NCBI GenBank assembly: GCA_030531025.1
Contig: JAUMTV010000116.1
Coordinates: forward strand, 1 to 9,527
Reading direction: 5' to 3'
From: Turicibacter sp.
Lineage (GTDB): Bacteria > Bacillota > Bacilli > MOL361 > Turicibacteraceae
Length of the DNA: 9,527 bases
Positions within the stretch are counted from its first letter, which is position 1. Every line of letters begins with the position of its first letter. The notes beneath the pieces were generated by a model that saw nothing but the letters and a program-made list of their open reading frames with translations, had not been told where the DNA came from and searched no databases. The position numbers and the translations under genes are program-made. Below are positions 1 to 9,527 of the stretch, one piece after another.

Positions 1-87
1 TGTGGACACATACACTACGGTAAAAAAGCTCCTAAATTGTGCCCTGTTTGCTCAAGTCAATACTTTGAAATAAAGAGAAATCTATAG
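1..87 (+). CDS. C-terminal fragment of a rubredoxin/rubrerythrin-type zinc-ribbon protein
   Basis: Only the last 28 codons and the TAG stop are present; the gene enters from the left edge in frame 1. The visible residues read CGHIHYGKKAPKLCPVC followed by a short tail. This matches the second half of a rubredoxin-like zinc ribbon (C-G-y-x-h-x-G then a-P-x-x-C-P-x-C), as at the C-terminus of rubrerythrins, where four cysteines hold one iron. The first Cys-x-x-Cys knuckle is mostly outside the window. A rubrerythrin-like protein would act in cytoplasmic peroxide or iron handling, but other proteins also end in such ribbons, so the function of the whole protein is open. A terminator follows 48 bases after the stop. 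The gene runs opposite to the mobile-element genes and may be host flank or cargo. Confidence 0.6.
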   Translation, partial: CGHIHYGKKAPKLCPVCSSQYFEIKRNL

Positions 88-812: not shown

Positions 813-840
813 GGCTCTGTTAGATAAAATGTTGATAAAA
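813..840 (+). repeat. Left terminal inverted repeat of the IS
   Basis: GGCTCTGTTAGA followed four bases later by ATGTTGA. It matches the reverse complement of 2461-2488 over GCTCTGTTAGA, and again over ATGTTGA with a one-base offset. Confidence 0.75.
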
Positions 841-843
841 CAG

Positions 844-879
844 AAAAAAAAGTGAAGATGAGCATCTTCACTTTTTTTT
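844..879 (-). terminator. Terminator of the IS passenger gene
   Basis: Seventeen bases at 844-860 are perfectly complementary to 863-879 (GTGAAGATG/CATCTTCAC plus A/T tails), with an effective 4-nt loop. It ends within the stop codon of the passenger gene and yields a U-run on the - strand transcript. It could also work on the + strand. Confidence 0.8.
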
Positions 880-1303
880 ATTCACTTAATGAGCTTAACT
901 TTTCTAAATCCAACACTCCATTTGTTGCGTGATATCCTAAAGAGAAACTTCCATCAAACTTTTTAACGTAAGAGATGTTTTTCTCATCATAGACACGAAT
1001 ATCGGCTAATTCATTTCCATTTTTATCAAACACAAAGACACGAAACTTTTTTTGAGGGCCTTTATATCCAGCGGCATCTGTTGTTATCTCAAGGTCTTCA
1101 TTAAAAATCTTGAATTTTAAGTCATTTAGTTCGCTAACTAAATAAGAGGCTTCCTCTTCAGATAGTTCAATGCGCTCTACCCCATTTTTACGTATTTCAA
1201 TACTTCCCACTACCTTTTCATTTAAACTGAATGAATAAATGGAAATAAAATAACATCCTAAGACAACGACAACAATCCCTACAAATAAGGCTATCTTTTT
1301 CAA
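878..1303 (-). CDS. Membrane-anchored 141-aa protein, IS passenger gene
   Basis: The protein begins MKKIALFVGI, followed by a hydrophobic helix to about residue 24, then a soluble domain of about 115 residues rich in charged and beta-forming residues. It should face the outside of the membrane. V-L-G-C at 14-17 is a weak lipobox, so it may be a lipoprotein or simply anchored. I chose the TTG at 1303 because GGGGGG sits 7 nt before it; the in-frame TTG at 1309 almost touches the Shine-Dalgarno site. The gene lies wholly inside the terminal repeats of the IS1595-family element, in the same direction as the transposase and 69 nt after it, with its own promoter (1338-1366) and terminator. I recognise no family. 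Immunity, surface or regulatory roles would be guesses. Confidence 0.7.
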   Translation of the reverse strand: MKKIALFVGIVVVVLGCYFISIYSFSLNEKVVGSIEIRKNGVERIELSEEEASYLVSELNDLKFKIFNEDLEITTDAAGYKGPQKKFRVFVFDKNGNELADIRVYDEKNISYVKKFDGSFSLGYHATNGVLDLEKLSSLSE

Positions 1304-1337
1304 ATTCAATCCCCCCTATAATGTTATTAATATCTTC

Positions 1338-1366
1338 ATTATAGATTATTAGGGAAAAATTTACAA
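1338..1366 (-). promoter_or_regulatory. Promoter of the IS passenger gene
   Basis: On the - strand, TTGTAA (1366-1361), a 17-nt spacer and consensus TATAAT (1343-1338). It starts just past the transposase stop codon (1373-1375) and ends 34 bases before the passenger start, so the passenger can be expressed without transposase transcription. Confidence 0.75.
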
Positions 1367-1372
1367 ATAATT

Positions 1373-2401
1373 TTAGCGGAATAAAGCTTGGCGTATTTTA
1401 TAATCTTCAATATTAATCTCTAATTGACTTGAAACAGCTTGAATAAGCATGTGTTTCCCTTTTATCACTTCTTTATCGTCTTTAATGTACTCAAGCCACT
1501 TGAACCAATATAAATAGTTGGCAAGGTACTTCGTTGAAACACCATTAAAATTATCCATCCATTTTTTTAGGCGACTATGAAATGAGTTCAACCTTTGTAT
1601 AGAGTAAAAATCTTCTGTTAAATAGCGACCCGATTTAATTTGTTTGTGCTCCAAGTTGAAATCTTTTGCGAATTGGATATACCCTTTGTGACTATCTGTA
1701 CATAGCGTTGAATCTTGTTCAACACGACCTTCTAACGCTCTATTTAAATCTGAACTCTTAAAGCGTCCCTTACAAATTAATTCCATATAAATATTGCCAT
1801 AGCGGTCTAATCCTGTTAGTACACACACTTGTTCAGAACTAATACCACGCTTCTTAACTTCTTTCCCACGCTTGCGAGCTGGACGTGGCATTGGAAAGCC
1901 ACTTTTCTCATGATTTCCCTTAAAGGATTCTGCAAAGAAAGTTTCATCCATTTCGATAACCCCCTCTAAATGTCCCATCCCAATAGCCATACGGATAGCG
2001 TCTAAGATACGGTGACGCATATAAAAAGAGGTTTTAATACATACATCGATATGTTCAGCACACTTACGAATACTTGCACCTAAAATCATTAATTTAGTAT
2101 ATTCTAACCATTTTGATAAAGGAATTTTAGAACTTGATAGAGCTGATTTAGTAAAGTCAGTGAATGTTTTTGAGCATGACTTACACTTATAACGTTGTTT
2201 AGAGTTAGCTTTACCAAATTTAGAAATAGCATTACTTTCACAATGCGGACACTTTTGCCCCATAGCAAATCGAGCCTCACGACACTCTTTTATTGTGACG
2301 GGACTTAATGACAACATTTCAAATATACGATTTGCTAATATCTCTTTTTGGTAATCCGTTAAAAACATTACATCAGCCATAACGCTATTAATTGTTGGCA
2401 T
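1373..2401 (-). CDS. IS1595-family (ISXO2-like) transposase
   Basis: The 342-aa product has an N-terminal zinc ribbon (CPHC at 51-54 and CKSC at 73-76), a helix-turn-helix at about 105-133, and an ISXO2-like DDE nuclease core. The core shows IEMDETFF (Asp-152), LCTDSHKGY (Asp-236) and RLNSFHSRLKKW, where Asn-272 with Lys-279 replaces the usual Glu, as known in part of this family. GVSTKYLANYLYWF is also typical of IS1595-type enzymes. The enzyme cuts and joins the ends of the surrounding element. Start: ATG at 2401 lies 7 nt after GAGGTG; the in-frame ATG at 2407 almost overlaps that site. A perfect CAAACGTTTG palindrome (2414-2423) overlaps the region just upstream. The gene looks intact. 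Confidence 0.93.
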   Translation of the reverse strand: MPTINSVMADVMFLTDYQKEILANRIFEMLSLSPVTIKECREARFAMGQKCPHCESNAISKFGKANSKQRYKCKSCSKTFTDFTKSALSSSKIPLSKWLEYTKLMILGASIRKCAEHIDVCIKTSFYMRHRILDAIRMAIGMGHLEGVIEMDETFFAESFKGNHEKSGFPMPRPARKRGKEVKKRGISSEQVCVLTGLDRYGNIYMELICKGRFKSSDLNRALEGRVEQDSTLCTDSHKGYIQFAKDFNLEHKQIKSGRYLTEDFYSIQRLNSFHSRLKKWMDNFNGVSTKYLANYLYWFKWLEYIKDDKEVIKGKHMLIQAVSSQLEINIEDYKIRQALFR

Positions 2402-2460
2402 AAACATTCACCTCAAACGTTTGTTTATATTAGTTTACCACGTTTCTAAGAGGCTATGCA

Positions 2461-2488
2461 AATTTCAACATTAAAGTCTAACAGAGCT
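2461..2488 (-). repeat. Right terminal inverted repeat of the IS
   Basis: Reading inward on the - strand: AGCTCTGTTAGAC, then AATGTTGA. It pairs with 813-840 over 11 of the first 12 bases and over the inner ATGTTGA block. Its last base is shared with the end of the right 54-bp repeat. Confidence 0.75.
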
Positions 2489-2626: not shown

Positions 2627-3250
2627 TTAATCATCTAAATCATCGAAGATTGAACATGCTTTTGCTAAATCATCCTCATTTGTACTAAGTTTCTTGTCAT
2701 CTCTATCAATAGAAATAAGATTTTTGACAATACCTTGTTCTCTTCTCTTTGTAGCACTTTCACTATTGATATACAGTAAATCGATTTCGTGATTTAAGGA
2801 CTCGTTTTCTTTTTTCAATCGCTCAATTTCAAGTTTTAATTCTTGAACCTCTGCTTTGTGTTCAGCCTCGAATTGGAAGAAATTCTTCACTTTATAAGCA
2901 GTATCTTGATACTGAATTACTAAATCTAAGAGTGCTTGAACATTTTGAGTCAATCTTTTTTTGTTACCATAATGCTCATCAACAAAGTCTTCAGCCGATG
3001 GGAGGATGACTTCCTGAACTTTCTTTGAATCAGTTAACGTTTTTGTCGAATTTAATGACTTAATCAACACATTAATCGGTTTATTATCCCTAAATATATA
3101 ATAGGGAATTCCTGTGGCTTTAGATATTTTACTAATTGTAATGTCATGTTCCATTGGATTCGCCTCTTTATACTCCTCAATACGCTTAATTAAAAATTCA
3201 TCGGTATATTTTTTTGGTCTACCCATTTTACTATCAATAATTTTACTCAA
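2627..3250 (-). CDS. Small coiled-coil DNA-binding partner of the recombinases, TnpC-like by position
   Basis: Last gene of the operon, about 207 aa. An AT-hook-like GRPKKY lies near residue 10, a putative helix-turn-helix at about 36-57 (ITISKISKATGIPYYIFRDN), a strongly charged heptad region at about 128-160 (ELKLEIERLKKENESLNHEI), and an acidic tail ending DDLDD. It has no catalytic recombinase motif. Small HTH/coiled-coil proteins end Tn554-type transposition operons (TnpC), where they assist rather than catalyse; a similar role is inferred here. Start: TTG at 3250 lies 9 nt after AAAGGA and 5 nt after the stop of the upstream gene. The TTG at 3259 touches the Shine-Dalgarno site, and the ATG at 3226 has no site. 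The Shine-Dalgarno sits in the end of the upstream gene, so translation is probably coupled. Confidence 0.75.
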   Translation of the reverse strand: MSKIIDSKMGRPKKYTDEFLIKRIEEYKEANPMEHDITISKISKATGIPYYIFRDNKPINVLIKSLNSTKTLTDSKKVQEVILPSAEDFVDEHYGNKKRLTQNVQALLDLVIQYQDTAYKVKNFFQFEAEHKAEVQELKLEIERLKKENESLNHEIDLLYINSESATKRREQGIVKNLISIDRDDKKLSTNEDDLAKACSIFDDLDD

Positions 3251-3255
3251 AAAAA

Positions 3256-4917
3256 TCAATCCTTTCTTATTCGGTACATATGAGCCTCTACAAGAGCTTT
3301 TCGTTTTAAGTCTGTATTTAGTGATTTGATGTTGGTTTTTGAGTCTGTATCATCCTTAAAATCAATTTTACGAGAAACTACTGATTTAATATAGTCTAAC
3401 TTTGTTTTTATCTGTCGATCTAACATCTCTGCTTTTTGTTCTAACATAACCTGAGACATATCTCTACTACCTACAAAGTGCGGACAAAATAAACAGTCAT
3501 CAATTTCACATTCAAGGGGGAAATTCTTCGACTGGCAATAACCATTATCTACTTTCATAACTGTGCCCAAACTGTTGGTTAATAAAGCCATGGAGATTTT
3601 TTGTTTTTGAGCCAGTTCTTTAGTTTCAAATTCATCATTAATGTTAAATTTGAATGAATTTTGAAAAGACTTAGCCATCCTGTGGGTATATGCTGTCGCA
3701 TAGCTATCTAAATGATTACAGTACCCAATTTGTTCTGTTAAATTATTGTGTCCAGCCATTTGAGCAATAGTGAATTCATTCATACCTTGTAACATCATCG
3801 AGCAAATAGCAATATGTCTTGTATCCCCAAGCGTGATCATTTCAATTTCATTAGAATCACAATCCAATTCCTCATCTTGTTTAGGAACAATTTTGTACCC
3901 ATAATGATCTCTAACAATTTCCTCAAAAAATTTAAAACGGAGAGTGTTATTTAGAAAACTATTAGTGGAAAATTCAGTATTTACTTTATTTTTAGGAACT
4001 GTTTGATTTAGATTATGTTTAGCGAATTCATAATCTAAGATATAGGGTGCATTGTTAAATGCTCTACCTAAATCGATGTAATGATGAATTAAGTCGAATA
4101 ATTCTTTGGATATTTCAACCTCTGTTAAAGGTGGGATAGTCTGATAACGAATTTGTCCTTGCCTCTTCTTGCGACGCTCAATTTTAATAAAATATGAGCC
4201 ATTTTTTTGATACAACCAATCACGTTCAAGAAGTGATAATTCGATAGGTCTTAAAGGAACGATTTTAGTTAATTGCCACCAAATTAAAACTGGATAATAC
4301 TTTAATTTTAACTCCTCTGAACCATTCAAGATAAAATCATTAATGATGTAATCAAATGTCATAATACTTTTATAAGAGGGCAGTGCTCTACTCCCATAGT
4401 TTGAATTAGGTACATGTTTTAAAGCATCATAATATTGCTCACTATTTGGTATTTGAGAAAATCTCAAAAACTCTCTTACATACATCATGTCTGCAAGGTC
4501 ATTATTATCAAAGTCTTTTATCTCATCAATGAAATCCACTAACTGATTTAAGTGAAAAAATTTTGTTTTTTTTACAACCTTGATAAGTCCAGACATCGAA
4601 CCCTGTATCTGGTTAGGCGTAATATTTTGGATTTTAAATTTGAAAACCAAATACTTTTTTAATAAGTTATTAACTTCTTGATTAAATTCAAAAGGAAATT
4701 CGATACTACGTGTACCCCAAAATTCGGTAAACAAAACCCATTTATTTTCTTTAAATGTAGTTTGTTTCATTTGTTTATCTTCAATCAATTCCTGTAAGAA
4801 ATCCTCGTATTCTTCTTGAGTATAGGTGTCATGAAAAATCTCATTTTTCACAACAATAATCCCTGTTGAATCTTCTTCGGATATATATTCCTTCACCTTA
4901 ATCCCTGTAGTTATCAT
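3256..4917 (-). CDS. Tyrosine recombinase-like protein with C-terminal Cys cluster (TnpB-like), altered H-x-x-R
   Basis: 553 aa; third gene of the operon. A helical N-terminal part (about 1-190) precedes a tyrosine-recombinase catalytic domain (about 195-410). It has PLRPIEL with the first Arg (R223), basic residues at 249-252 where the beta-hairpin Lys is expected, LGDTRHIA (R367, H368), MAGHNN (H390) and GYCNH with Tyr-399 as nucleophile. The first His of the usual H-x-x-R is Gly-364, so activity may be altered or need a partner. The C-terminus has C461, C470, C475, C478 and H480, a likely zinc site, then a charged helix (485-515). Size, order and the Cys cluster recall TnpB of Tn554. Start: ATG at 4917 with AAAAGGAGG 9 nt before it, 28 nt after the upstream stop. 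DNA strand cleavage and joining is inferred from the family. Confidence 0.85.
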   Translation of the reverse strand: MITTGIKVKEYISEEDSTGIIVVKNEIFHDTYTQEEYEDFLQELIEDKQMKQTTFKENKWVLFTEFWGTRSIEFPFEFNQEVNNLLKKYLVFKFKIQNITPNQIQGSMSGLIKVVKKTKFFHLNQLVDFIDEIKDFDNNDLADMMYVREFLRFSQIPNSEQYYDALKHVPNSNYGSRALPSYKSIMTFDYIINDFILNGSEELKLKYYPVLIWWQLTKIVPLRPIELSLLERDWLYQKNGSYFIKIERRKKRQGQIRYQTIPPLTEVEISKELFDLIHHYIDLGRAFNNAPYILDYEFAKHNLNQTVPKNKVNTEFSTNSFLNNTLRFKFFEEIVRDHYGYKIVPKQDEELDCDSNEIEMITLGDTRHIAICSMMLQGMNEFTIAQMAGHNNLTEQIGYCNHLDSYATAYTHRMAKSFQNSFKFNINDEFETKELAQKQKISMALLTNSLGTVMKVDNGYCQSKNFPLECEIDDCLFCPHFVGSRDMSQVMLEQKAEMLDRQIKTKLDYIKSVVSRKIDFKDDTDSKTNIKSLNTDLKRKALVEAHMYRIRKD

Positions 4918-4945
4918 CAGTTAGAACCTCCTTTTAATTTACTTA

Positions 4946-7900
4946 TTAAAGACTTAATAATTTAGGCTTCGTTTCGGTCATTCGATCGCTAAGTTTTCTT
5001 AATGGCACAAAGGTTTTGAAATAATTAGGATCAATTTGATCAAACTCAGTTTTAGCCTCTCTTAATACCATCATTAATCTCGTGATTTGGAACGTATACT
5101 TCCTTCGATTAACATTGTCATCATCTTCCACTAAACTTAATTTATCGAACAATACGAATAATTCATCACTAATTGCGAGTAAAGAGTAATTGGTTGGAAT
5201 ACTATAACGACAACCTTTGCAAGAATTTTGAGTAGTGAAAGGACATTTCTCTGGTTTTATGCAATAGATATTTCTTTCCTTAGAAGATAAATTACCAAGA
5301 ATTAATTGATGAATTAATTCTTTTAATTTGTCTTTAGGAGCTGTTACTAACTCATTGAGGACACTTCTTCTACTGTCTAACTCATAAGTTAAGAACCTTG
5401 AGATATTTTCAATTCCACTTGCACTTAAATCTTTTTGAAGTGTTTCAATAGCGGTAGTCATTTCTGTTAATGTCTCATATTCTTCGCTATAAGCTAAATC
5501 AATCATGACTTTATACAGCCACCCAAATACTCCTCTTCTGAATAATTGGCTACTAATTGTATTGATGTCTCCATCTTTACTAAGGGCATAAATGTATTGA
5601 GAGGTTGTTTCTGCCTTTTGATACATATTAGGCTTATGAGATCGTAAATAAGAGCCCATACTATAAGCAATTGAGCTATAATTTTCTGACTCATTCGCTT
5701 CGTTGAAAAGATATGAAATTAGGCTACGATTAGCTTTTCGACTACTAAAACCAGCCATTTCCTCACCTAAATACTCCTTTAAAGATTTTAGTTCTATTTT
5801 TTCAATAGAAAATAACGTAGATGAATTACTTGCTCTTCGATGTTGTTCTGTAATAATAAAGGCAATAGAAACGGGGATAACATAGTGAATTGGTACTATG
5901 AAATGTTTGCGAGCCCCTGTTTTTCGAGTCTCTCTATCTTCTACAAACTTCTTAACTGAATTAATGATAATTTGACCATCTGACAACTTAAAATCATTGT
6001 TTTTGAACCAATCTAATGAGTATTTATCGATGTCAAGATCGTCAAAACCTGTATTCCCACTATTATCAAGAAAATCTAAACCTGGGGTTTCTAAAAAATC
6101 ACTTGAACGCCAAGCAACCGAAAAATGAAGAATGGCATAGAGCCAACGTTTAGCGTAGGAATATCGTTCAAATGCTTTTTCAATATGTTGATTAATATCA
6201 GTTAAGAAATTAGAGTAGAAAGTCCATTCTTCTAAAGTGTAAATGTCATCAACAGCTCTCATTCTTGCTTCTTTATAGCGATTATAATGATTTTTAAATT
6301 GGCATTTATCTGAGTATTTTTGTCTTAAATAATTTAAATAAACTGAGAAATGCCCTCGATCAGTCGCAGTAAGTTCTTCTGATGATAAAATCTGTAATAT
6401 TTCATCGTCACTTAACAAATGAATGTCATTTGGACTTACATTGATAAATCTGCTTAACGCGTTAAATAATTCATGTGTCATATCTAAGAGAGCATTTGAA
6501 TTTGAATTATTTATCTTAGTAAAGGCAAACTCTTTATAAGTCTTGATGGCAAAAGAGAATTGTTCCTTATGTTCTTTGGTGAATTGTTCTTCTAATAATT
6601 CATATCGATCATGAGGTTTTTTTGTGTTTCTAAACTCAAATTCTGCCTTAATTCTTTTAACAAAATCAGACTTAAATTGCTTGGGATTTTGTGTTCTAAT
6701 TCTGTTGTGTGCATTCCCAAAAATAGTAAAACTGAAAACTTCAACATCATCTGAGCAATAAGCACGAACACTTGCATTTGATTGAGTTTTAGCTGTATTA
6801 ACTTTTAATAATTCTTTACCCAATTCACTCATGGCAATAGAATTATCTAAGATATGTTTAATAGATTCTAATTCTTTTTTAGAGACATATAGTGTTCCCA
6901 ATTCATTTTCATAAGTATTAATAACAGAGCCTCTTTTAATCGCATGTTTTAACATTCTTGAACTAAGAGTTGTTCCATTTGCTGTCAAGTTGTAAAAATT
7001 TTGGATTGACTCTACCTTAATAAAAGTATCATTATCCACTTCCAGAGTATCAGGCGAAGCTTCAATTCTTCTTAGTTTAGAAGGCTTCCTCTTAGTGGAT
7101 AAAGTCTTAACCACTCTTACCCTACAATCTTCATAATATTGGTACCCTTCTCCGAATTCATCTATTTTTTGATCAATCATAGCCTTATCAAAATATTCAG
7201 TGATACCAAATTTTTTCCATTCAACATCTTTTTTTATTATCTCTATTACCGTTTCTAATAGGCATGTACTTATATTAAGTAGTTCTTCCAAATCCTTACG
7301 TCTGTAAGAATTTCGGATAAACTGATATTCATCTACTAAATTGGGAATAATATCATCTTTTAAATACACTCGATTGTTTACTTTTATGGTGTGTTCCTTT
7401 AAACCACGCCTAACTTTATCCCTTATAACGTGATAATCAAGGTTATGTGTATTACAAACCTGTTTTACATGAGTATATCCATCTGGAACCTTATCCATTT
7501 CGGTTTCAACTTGAGTTGTTAGACTTATGCCACGTTCTTTCATTAATCGTTCCAAAGCTGTCTTATCTACATAACAACCTCCATCGAATTCTTTCCATTC
7601 TTGTCCCTCTTTTAAATACTTGCGAATAGTTTGTTTATGTATTCCAGAAAGTTTTTGAGCTTGTGATAAAGTGATGCTATTTTCTAAAAAATCTTTGAAC
7701 GGCTCACGTTCTTTTAACAATTGTTCAAGAGCCTCTTTTTTAAAATAAGTCACACCCCCAATTATTCTCCATTCTTCCACCTGTTTTAGGCATTTACAAA
7801 GTTTAGGTGTCTTAAGCCCAGAAAGTTTTTGAGTCTCTGTCGATGGAATACTGGCTGATTTAAACGCTACTTCCTCTTGGAGGATTTTAAAGCCCTCTTC

Positions 7901-8008
7901 GGTAATCATCAACTTCGTTCCTATTTTGGTTACCCCTAAATCCTTTCTCTTTCGGATGTGATCATAGGTCAATCCTAACGTTTCTCCTACCTCTCTCACA
8001 GTAATCAT
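4946..8008 (-). CDS. Giant tyrosine recombinase-like protein with tandem HTH array
   Basis: 1020 aa from ATG 8008, which has GAGGGG 8 nt upstream; the longer frame from TTG 8050 lacks such a site and overlaps the previous gene by 37 nt. The N-terminal third holds about six related 45-60-residue units, at about 2-47, 56-101, 112-160, 177-220, 234-286 and 328-387. They resemble MerR/excisionase helix-turn-helix modules, best seen in the second and third (QKLSG...EW...Y...AL..L.KER). A mainly helical linker follows. From about 590 a divergent tyrosine-recombinase core is suggested by VAWRSSD (R634), a basic hairpin (686-701), RKANR (R761), LRSH (H791) and TTSQYIY (Tyr-805 or 807). A Cys cluster lies at C916, C922, C930 and C933. 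Typical tyrosine recombinases have 300-450 residues. Role inferred: end recognition plus strand exchange, or a catalytically weak architectural subunit. Confidence 0.75.
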   Translation of the reverse strand: MITVREVGETLGLTYDHIRKRKDLGVTKIGTKLMITEEGFKILQEEVAFKSASIPSTETQKLSGLKTPKLCKCLKQVEEWRIIGGVTYFKKEALEQLLKEREPFKDFLENSITLSQAQKLSGIHKQTIRKYLKEGQEWKEFDGGCYVDKTALERLMKERGISLTTQVETEMDKVPDGYTHVKQVCNTHNLDYHVIRDKVRRGLKEHTIKVNNRVYLKDDIIPNLVDEYQFIRNSYRRKDLEELLNISTCLLETVIEIIKKDVEWKKFGITEYFDKAMIDQKIDEFGEGYQYYEDCRVRVVKTLSTKRKPSKLRRIEASPDTLEVDNDTFIKVESIQNFYNLTANGTTLSSRMLKHAIKRGSVINTYENELGTLYVSKKELESIKHILDNSIAMSELGKELLKVNTAKTQSNASVRAYCSDDVEVFSFTIFGNAHNRIRTQNPKQFKSDFVKRIKAEFEFRNTKKPHDRYELLEEQFTKEHKEQFSFAIKTYKEFAFTKINNSNSNALLDMTHELFNALSRFINVSPNDIHLLSDDEILQILSSEELTATDRGHFSVYLNYLRQKYSDKCQFKNHYNRYKEARMRAVDDIYTLEEWTFYSNFLTDINQHIEKAFERYSYAKRWLYAILHFSVAWRSSDFLETPGLDFLDNSGNTGFDDLDIDKYSLDWFKNNDFKLSDGQIIINSVKKFVEDRETRKTGARKHFIVPIHYVIPVSIAFIITEQHRRASNSSTLFSIEKIELKSLKEYLGEEMAGFSSRKANRSLISYLFNEANESENYSSIAYSMGSYLRSHKPNMYQKAETTSQYIYALSKDGDINTISSQLFRRGVFGWLYKVMIDLAYSEEYETLTEMTTAIETLQKDLSASGIENISRFLTYELDSRRSVLNELVTAPKDKLKELIHQLILGNLSSKERNIYCIKPEKCPFTTQNSCKGCRYSIPTNYSLLAISDELFVLFDKLSLVEDDDNVNRRKYTFQITRLMMVLREAKTEFDQIDPNYFKTFVPLRKLSDRMTETKPKLLSL
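7644..7659 (-). repeat. 16-bp direct repeat inside the HTH array, copy in the third unit
   Basis: Identical on the DNA level to 7818-7833 (CCAGAAAGTTTTTGAG on the + strand), in the same reading frame, encoding part of the shared AQKLSG/TQKLSG motif. It supports origin of the helix-turn-helix units by duplication. Confidence 0.7.
7818..7833 (-). repeat. 16-bp direct repeat inside the HTH array, copy in the second unit
   Basis: Partner of 7644-7659, 174 bases apart (58 codons), the length of one helix-turn-helix unit plus linker. Confidence 0.7.
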
Positions 8009-8013
8009 AGTTG

Positions 8014-9282
8014 TCACCCCTCTATATCTTCTTGAAATAACTTGCCACAATACTCATTCATGAAATCATAAATTTTATCATTCATTGATTTAGTATTTGT
8101 GATATAAGGTAATGCAGCATTTAACGTGCTATCTCCTCGCATTGCAGCTAATTCAACAGCATTACTTGCAACCTCTTTGGCAAGATTACTAAAAACACCT
8201 CGCCCAATATGGGTTGACCAGTTTTGAGTCTGTAAATAAAGAGCGTATGAGTGTAGTTCTGGATTATTAGATTCCCTTAATCCCTTAAGAAAAGCCTTTT
8301 TTACTTTGTTAAAATAATAACGATAGCCCTGATAATCCATTGGTTTTCCATATTTATTAAGAAATACGGCTGACTGATCTTCTTGTTTATAGAGTTTCTT
8401 GTGATTTTCAAACAATTTCATGAAGTATCCATTTAACCCAGCTACTCGTTGATCCCTAACTTTCTTGACTTGGGCTTGATAACTACTCTTGTTATCAGGT
8501 CGTAAGTCTTTTTTTCTTAGTCGGATAACGACTCCATCACGACCTGCACGACCTCTTAATGAAATATCTGTATACTCAACTGAAACAACTTCACTCGCTC
8601 TTAATCCTCCAAAGAATTGCATATAAATCCCTAATGTAATCGATGGCGCTACCTTTAAAGATGTTTCTAAGAAATAAACAAGAAGATTAGATTGAATCTC
8701 ATGCAACTTATTCTTGTTGTGTACTTCTTTATTTTTTTTAATTAATCCTTCAAATGGTGATTCCATAACAGTTCTGTTGTTGGATTGTGTAAATGTAAAA
8801 TCTGAGAGTTTTACTCGCTTTAAAAGTTTCCTTTTTGCCATGAAATAATAAAACTCTGCAACCGTTCGTTCCATTTTATCAGAAGATGATTTTGACCATT
8901 TCTCACTGTATTGATTTAAAAAATCAATCCCAATTTCAAAATCTAATTCACTAATATGAGGTAATACTTTTTCACTTAAATCAAAGTGGATGTAATTCAG
9001 AAACTGTACGATGTTTGACGCTTTATTCATTCGGTGTTTAATACTACTGTTCTTCCATTTGCCTAAGAACTCTGTATAAGGGTGTATACGACTCTTCCCA
9101 GTCTTTATATTTTGAATTTTAATCACAACATGAACATCCGTAATCATGTCTCCTGTTCGACTATGAGGACGTTGAACCTTAATCACTTCTCTAATGAATT
9201 GATACTTTGGTTCTCTTTTATTGACTGGAATAAATGAAATAACATTACTACTCATGAATGATCTCCTCTCTGATTTTGACAT
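8014..9282 (-). CDS. Tyrosine recombinase/integrase (TnpA-like), first gene of the operon
   Basis: 422 aa. An N-terminal core-binding (SAM-like) part at about 70-170 precedes the catalytic domain at about 190-400. Visible residues: FFGGLRASEV (first Arg, R228), VKKVRD (K273/K274) as candidate hairpin Lys, STHIGRG (H358, R361, intact H-x-x-R) and LPYITN (Tyr-393 nucleophile). The usual G-H box before the Tyr reads MRGDS, so the second His is missing, which is tolerated in some families. It should make and rejoin single-strand breaks through a phosphotyrosine link. Two starts are possible: ATG 9282 with TAGGAG 6 nt upstream, or ATG 9255 with GAGAGGAG 7 nt upstream; both are good. Its last codons (GAG GGG TGA) hold the Shine-Dalgarno of the next gene, whose ATG follows after 5 nt. 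Position, size and motifs match TnpA of Tn554-type elements. Confidence 0.88.
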   Translation of the reverse strand: MSKSERRSFMSSNVISFIPVNKREPKYQFIREVIKVQRPHSRTGDMITDVHVVIKIQNIKTGKSRIHPYTEFLGKWKNSSIKHRMNKASNIVQFLNYIHFDLSEKVLPHISELDFEIGIDFLNQYSEKWSKSSSDKMERTVAEFYYFMAKRKLLKRVKLSDFTFTQSNNRTVMESPFEGLIKKNKEVHNKNKLHEIQSNLLVYFLETSLKVAPSITLGIYMQFFGGLRASEVVSVEYTDISLRGRAGRDGVVIRLRKKDLRPDNKSSYQAQVKKVRDQRVAGLNGYFMKLFENHKKLYKQEDQSAVFLNKYGKPMDYQGYRYYFNKVKKAFLKGLRESNNPELHSYALYLQTQNWSTHIGRGVFSNLAKEVASNAVELAAMRGDSTLNAALPYITNTKSMNDKIYDFMNEYCGKLFQEDIEG

Positions 9283-9407
9283 GTATGACTCCTAAAAATA
9301 AATCATAATCCATAAAAATTAGTAGCCTTTATTTTTCTACTTATAGATAATCATTTCTCTATGAAAGAAAAGTATATCTATTTTATACAAATGTAGTATT
9401 ACCAACC

Positions 9408-9436
9408 ATTATAAACATTATACATACATCTATTAA
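9408..9436 (-). promoter_or_regulatory. Candidate promoter of the recombinase operon
   Basis: On the - strand, TTAATA (9436-9431), a 17-nt spacer and consensus TATAAT (9413-9408), giving a leader of about 120 nt to the ATG at 9282. A second, weaker pair lies upstream (TTTGAG and TATAGA, with TATAGA at 9455-9460). The stretch 9283-9527 shows no gene on either strand. Confidence 0.4.
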
Positions 9437-9527
9437 GTAGGAGTCTTACTTTACTCTATAATACCATAGACTTTTGCTCAAATGATCAATCTCATTTTGA
9501 AATTCGTTTAGAGAATTATTAAAAAAC

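Follow-up and report, generated by a model that had tools for sequence, protein, structure and literature searches.

A four-gene tyrosine recombinase module of Turicibacter and its probable place in a site-specific integrative element of the Bacillota

A 9,527-nt stretch of DNA from Turicibacter sp. (contig JAUMTV010000116.1), here called the window, very probably belongs to a site-specific Bacillota integrative element that works like the elements known as SE and GInt; it would include the half with intA and the greater part of the cargo. The module concerned is an operon of four closely packed minus-strand genes, encoding proteins of 422, 1020, 553 and approximately 199–210 aa, and is judged to belong to a divergent Bacillota lineage for which SE and GInt are the closest described systems. 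Both element ends could be placed in seven relatives (L001, G001, G522, G667, G731, L025 and G1260). Each of these interrupts a conserved host gene, for a dinB-like polymerase, topoisomerase III, DUF2196 or a nuclease, and six of the seven contain a further, intact copy of the gene that is split.

Conservation of the four-gene operon

A preliminary description of the window, based on its sequence alone, proposed an operon of three different recombinase-like proteins and a small coiled-coil partner. This operon is both real and recurrent. Among 30 genome loci retrieved with a Tfp profile, the order IntA, Tfp-like protein, IntB and small coiled-coil protein is kept in 29, each with a homologue of the small protein at the same position, and in the thirtieth the operon stops at the contig end; the possibility that the four genes do not co-occur elsewhere is therefore false. 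Either tfp or intB is fragmented at L007, L011, L026 and L029. When the full 1020-aa protein was used as a query against 5.8 billion proteins, five relatives with 61–65 % identity were found, one from Turicibacter sanguinis, and the core of the Paenibacillus lautus relative retrieved 62 proteins, whose named sources are Bacillota (for example Paenibacillus, Bacillus, Lysinibacillus, Brevibacillus and Desulfitobacterium). The titled genome loci are likewise Bacillota, not the Gammaproteobacteria that are hosts of SE and, in the portion of PMC10214605 consulted, the only group in which tfp/srap blocks are reported. An IntA profile (E 1e-15) matched 2 of 398 genomes across the phylum of genome G001; at the level of the order, the matches were 26 of 296 for G001 and 20 of 299 for G002. 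The window Tfp-like protein had matches in 6 of 398 genomes of the class. Zero relatives were returned when a close alignment (A1) was used to query genome contigs, when viral contigs were scanned and when a phage collection was searched.

The Tfp-like protein also matches four plasmid records, three of which have the complete set in the same gene order: Paenibacillus lautus (L001), Enterococcus faecalis (L003) and Cytobacillus firmus (L004), the last with intA interrupted by IS21. On the E. faecalis plasmid the four genes (12297–18925) are approximately 2.4 kb away from streptogramin resistance genes, and in C. firmus (13930–21702) mercury-resistance genes come after the module; mercury or quaternary-ammonium type genes are beside the module in some members. 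The remaining record, L002 (NZ_CP029055.1), is a 5.1-kb circular sequence labelled as a Campylobacter jejuni plasmid that consists mostly of fragments of three genes of the Bacillota module, and may be a contaminant or a misassembly. Remnants were seen at two further loci. In Exiguobacterium (L048, 6977–10405) an intB–srap pair adjoins bcrABC-type genes, and at L020 (2103–3830) a second intA–tfp remnant, partial and diverged, is on the opposite strand close to a complete module.

Residue conservation was assessed in alignments from the loci sampled (A6, 28 rows; A7, 25 rows; A8, 25 rows) and, for the Tfp-like protein, in 52 of the 68 listed proteins after removal of fragments and near copies (A5), with residues of all three recombinases assigned to recombinase boxes by reading. 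The first gene, intA (8014–9282, minus strand), encodes a tyrosine recombinase of 422 aa (PF00589, 6.5e-8) in which R228, K273, H358 and R361 are invariant in 25 of 25 rows; Y393, and D384 where H or W is usual, are present in 24 of the rows, with one gap. The third, intB (3256–4917, minus strand), encodes a Cre-fold tyrosine recombinase of 553 aa, as indicated by a Cre-like structure model, with a C-terminal four-cysteine motif (461, 470, 475, 478); all 28 rows have R223, K250, H368 and Y399, while R367 is kept in 27 and H390 in 26.

Between these is the Tfp-like gene (4946–8008, minus strand; 1020 aa), recognised from an HTH_17 match (1.5e-4), a structure model and its folds. The protein has a helix-turn-helix (HTH) array at approximately 1–440, a tyrosine-recombinase-like core at approximately 480–812 and a C-terminal four-cysteine motif (916, 922, 930, 933). 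R634, K696, H791, Y805 and all four cysteines are found in 52 of 52 rows, and the second arginine is uncertain (R761 in 38 rows, K758 in 50). The model has a mean pLDDT of 77 and a pTM of 0.34 and is weakest at approximately 780–880, which includes the tyrosine region, and the catalytic state was therefore judged from residue conservation. The description of the first three genes as recombinase-like is confirmed. The HTH unit folds similarly to the DNA-binding domains of pSK1 Par, BldC and CarH. An HTH-unit profile detects 2 to 10 units per protein across the 52 proteins and 4 in the window protein, in which approximately 7–8 are seen by eye in the model; such variation between members fits a modular DNA reader.

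The last gene (2627–3259, minus strand) encodes the Srap-like small coiled-coil protein of 199–210 aa, in the position of TnpC, Srap and GinD. It matches DUF6262 (1.8e-4), as does the Srap of SE-6945 (9.5e-5). The proposed small coiled-coil partner is confirmed.

Element ends, interrupted host genes and carried copies

Such a module had been expected to mark an element end, next to the cargo, and this is the arrangement found: the intA side is the end, and the cargo is past the fourth gene. In the relatives the intA-side end is approximately 40–310 nt ahead of intA. A motif, TTATCT...TGCACATAA...TGTACATAA, is present upstream of intA in 35 of 65 distinct sequences, this being the same set on which it was built and scored, and the DNA before it is host-like and variable. 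Imperfect terminal inverted repeats are present in the seven end-resolved relatives, the observed scores being attained by 12, 25, 24, 0, 11, 101 and 0 of 1000 shuffles (no more than 25 in six of the seven), after right-end positions had been moved by 1–24 nt from their first placement on inspection.

A dinB-like gene is split in L001, G001, G522 and G667: its 3′ part is on the intA side and its 5′ part on the far side, and the two parts enclose a second, complete copy. In L025 a DUF2196 gene is split likewise, again enclosing a complete additional copy. The host fragments overlap by approximately 9–13 aligned residues in L001 and G001, meet at or within one residue in G522, G667 and L025, and within two in G731. 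In the five loci with a split dinB-like or DUF2196 gene, the target-gene piece beyond srap had been regarded as the outcome of an incomplete repair, joined to the host gene; this was overturned because the piece is a complete spare copy and the host fragment is further out. At L008, L011, L031 and L034 one fragment and a complete copy are present, the other fragment being beyond the sampled DNA; the copy carried at L008 encodes a peroxiredoxin (AhpC-TSA, 3.3e-40). A confident same-gene copy was identified in 10 of 36 loci (27 loci, 8 further genomes and G1260), with the weak or paralogous target-copy matches of L021, L030 and G654 excluded from the counts. Pfam searches of flanks identified topoisomerase (L009, L010, L020, L022, L024, L029), ATP-dependent DNA ligase (L015, L034), RtcB (L018), an ABC transporter (L030) and the DinB C-terminal domain (L001, L005); there was no Pfam match in the flanks of L033 and L019 or in the short flank of L008.

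Two copies of the element are present in G1260, on contigs of 3.1 Mb and 128 kb. They show no difference over 9,840 bp and diverge in the flanks only, and as the best, indirect evidence they suggest that the element moves. Its ends are GGTATAGGACACTTTT and, inverted, GGTATAGGATATTCTTTT, and its contents include a complete 325-aa nuclease gene (PF13930, 2.9e-7), a small multidrug-resistance type pair and a TetR-like gene. Copy A interrupts a nuclease gene, by reading at GHIIADSLGG, leaving an orphan 3′ part of 138 aa. For copy B, resemblance to the target is limited to approximately 20 nt at the left. Short host repeats, such as GGTGG, are seen.

For the window copy, the target would be a rubrerythrin gene broken at the codons of the last rubredoxin cysteine. 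The intA-side end occupies approximately 190 nt (9283–9472, minus strand), with the junction putatively just ahead of the host fragment that starts at about 9473. This fragment (9473–9522, plus strand), the orphan 3′ end of the broken host gene, reads CSNDQSHFEIRLENY and then a stop when translated from 9475–9522. It scores 40 (BLOSUM) against a rubrerythrin C-terminus, a score attained by none of 10,000 dinucleotide shuffles (maximum 28), and the second-best of 353 C-termini against the window scores 12. On the far side, positions 1–87 (plus strand) are another rubrerythrin 3′ end, truncated by the contig start, with a PF21349 rubredoxin-like domain (1e-7). From the dinB geometry of L001 and G001, the preferred interpretation is that 1–87 would be the spare gene of the element, its far end being past the contig. 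It is also possible that 1–87 is a repaired host gene or a chimera with its junction at 47–55, where the first copy of a 9-bp word, TTTGCTCAA, is found on the plus strand; the second copy is at 9473–9481 in the same codon frame. A rubrerythrin search of 250 genomes gave only 3 distant matches, and therefore provided no empty site for the window. Inverted repeats at 549–573 and 9398–9422 were considered as element ends and dropped, being inside the orphan-gene boundary.

A number of observations weigh against a site-specific element with captured target genes. Excision, a circle or transposition was not observed. The reference rubrerythrin C-terminus is from one of three loci and was chosen for its resemblance to the fragment, the 9-bp word is at chance level, and the DNA alignment of the two rubrerythrin ends is reached by 229 of 2000 shuffles. 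The end motif is missing from 30 of the 65 distinct intA upstreams and is absent upstream of window intA (score −2.8). A second inverted repeat could not be made out in the window, where 42 of 60 shuffles equal what is seen, and the far end is therefore either outside the contig or unrecognised. Between unrelated elements the inverted-repeat score averages 9.7, with values up to 18, compared with 10–19 for own pairs, and part of the own-pair score is therefore a motif common to the family. Likewise, topB is split in G731 with no spare copy within 39.9 kb, and no spare copy was seen in 26 of the 36 loci, though many contigs end too early.

Relationship to other multi-recombinase elements

SE are strand-biased circularizing integrative elements, such as SE-6283 and SE-6945, and are further characterised by a 6-bp footprint, a strand-biased circle and the lack of an empty site. 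The profile comparison drew on six to seven loci of SE and a single GInt-like operon (Paraburkholderia, L047), with eight SE/GInt profiles. It is plausible, though not the favoured explanation, that the elements are simply SE or GInt, the same family having spread into the Bacillota with nothing distinct about it. The gene order of recombinase, tfp-type gene, recombinase and small protein is shared with SE, as are terminal inverted repeats that are imperfect, insertion at selected sites within genes and a target-gene copy; in SE-6283 the gene carried in copy is its target bcp (in the text seen of PMC9345347), and two Bacillota loci are also in peroxiredoxin genes. Imperfect terminal inverted repeats, of 13–19 bp in SE, are supported by the shuffles in six of the seven relatives and were not recognised in the window copy. 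IntA matches SE IntA with E values of 5e-8 and 1.2e-7 in two profile comparisons, the sole significant SE match. By hhalign, IntB and the small protein best match SE IntB (0.0017) and SE Srap (0.0079), so that three of the four proteins have, of the eight profiles, their best match in the SE protein of the same position, a suggestive pattern.

The Tfp-like protein, however, matches SE Tfp with only 0.048, slightly less well than it matches SE IntB (0.0079), and IntA against GInt GinA, represented by one sequence only, gives 0.58. No significant GInt profile match was found for any of the four proteins, the best being 0.021 against the single L047 operon, whereas SE and GInt are far closer to each other (SE IntA–GinA, 2e-28; IntB–GinC, 3.6e-29). 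Pfam shows no HTH array in the SE or GInt proteins tested. The long protein of SE is the third (720 aa in SE-6945), compared with approximately 550 aa for Bacillota IntB, whereas the long protein of the Bacillota module is the second; SE Tfp is 581 aa and lacks RHRY, whereas in the Bacillota Tfp-like protein there is an HTH array and R, K, H and Y are retained. GInts (ginABCD) resemble the Bacillota elements in that one end is occupied by an operon for three recombinase-type proteins and a small one, an HLH protein in GInts, with variable cargo, and an AT-rich far end and circles are reported for them in the part of PMC5385486 available. GInts are flanked by imperfect direct repeats of 10–17 nt; possible counterparts are the 9-bp shared word in the window and short host repeats such as GGTGG in G1260.

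The conserved order, the intA side as one end and the cargo past the fourth gene support the earlier view that these multi-recombinase modules form a branch which is distinct or has been little described. That the four genes had already been described together as a named element was not the case in the sources found. The literature searched held no published account of Bacillota members beside a mention of Firmicutes GInts in a supplementary table of Bardaji et al. 2017 (PMC5385486), the entries of which are outside the text consulted.

The preliminary description had named Tn554, recombinase-in-trio (RIT) elements and the Gamma-Mobile-Trio (GMT) as kin and did not name SE and GInt, the closest systems found. 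The Gamma-Mobile-Trio is, like the Bacillota element, a multi-gene recombinase module with cargo; a general NCBIfam scan of the window proteins gave no GMT-named family, with the presence of GMT models in that library unverified and no GMT sequence compared. RIT elements likewise have three consecutive recombinase genes, of 315–410 aa in the passages seen of PMC10214605, which list no fourth small gene, compared with 422, 1020 and 553 aa here.

The Tn554 family (Tn554, Tn552-II) combines a large recombinase with the small TnpC and inserts into a conserved gene. A Tn554-type transposon with one added gene, IntB being a TnpB-like protein followed by TnpC, is a very unlikely origin of the module. 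IntB does have a weak match (4.8e-4) to the recombinase of L049 that adjoins a DUF6262 protein, but this is a partial 494-residue frame, Tn554-like by reading only. Tn552-II, which is called consistent with Tn554, has a yolD-like gene as its insertion site and a target-gene-like gene among its contents (PMC12486829, as far as its text was available); however, Tn554 has three genes (tnpA, tnpB, tnpC) to the four here, and the large second protein has no Tn554 counterpart in the text of PMC10214605 consulted. At L049 (1468–3328), the recombinase frame is followed by the DUF6262 protein (127 aa), like the tnpB–tnpC pair of Tn554.

As to mechanism, the four proteins would most likely assemble on both inverted ends, where IntA and IntB, possibly with the Tfp-like protein, would act with the small coiled-coil protein on the short terminal inverted repeats. 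The HTH array may bind the end repeats (TGYACATAA). By analogy with the GInt and SE papers, a circular intermediate would then be formed and inserted into a short conserved host-gene motif, possibly with no empty donor site being left. The element would bring its own intact version of the interrupted gene, so that host function is not lost; with this spare copy the host would survive, and the element may gain in stability. This habit has precedents, because SE-6283 and Tn552-II carry target-type genes. It is also conceivable, though somewhat unlikely, that the Bacillota have their own class of four-gene elements, in which the HTH array of the Tfp-like protein reads the end repeats and capture of a host gene retargets the element to the invariant codons of the gene carried. 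Loss of such an element would then be loss of a working gene, and the elements would spread as gene replacers with built-in stability.

SE have been reported as limited to Gammaproteobacteria, and if a diverged lineage in the Bacillota shares their plan, this mode of DNA mobility would be old and widespread. Paenibacillus and relatives of Bacillus provide tractable, non-pathogenic hosts for studying what each of the four proteins does. A split gene beside a complete spare copy makes target choice and stability directly testable, and provides a rule for locating element ends.

Cargo side of the window

The cargo side (88–2626) is mostly occupied by an IS1595-family insertion sequence (813–2487, minus strand; NF033547, 1e-59), with its transposase at 1373–2407 and ends GGCTCTGTTAGA at 813 and TCTAACAGAGC at 2477. 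The insertion within the cargo, together with the unseen far end, would agree with the window copy being a dead remnant, broken by the insertion sequence and stranded. This is unlikely, as all four reading frames are open and the 1020-aa protein is whole in its close relatives (61–65 % identity).

No 8-bp target duplication is apparent by eye at the ends of the insertion sequence, and its passenger open reading frame (878–1309) encodes 143 aa with no family assigned. A 41-aa open reading frame at 605–730, resembling a small membrane peptide, has no Pfam family (best 0.082) and is followed by a strong inverted repeat at 725–789. Inverted repeats at 199–252 and 2488–2541 were dropped as candidate element ends, as they flank the insertion sequence; they are 54 nt long and 89 % complementary, with one arm touching the insertion sequence.

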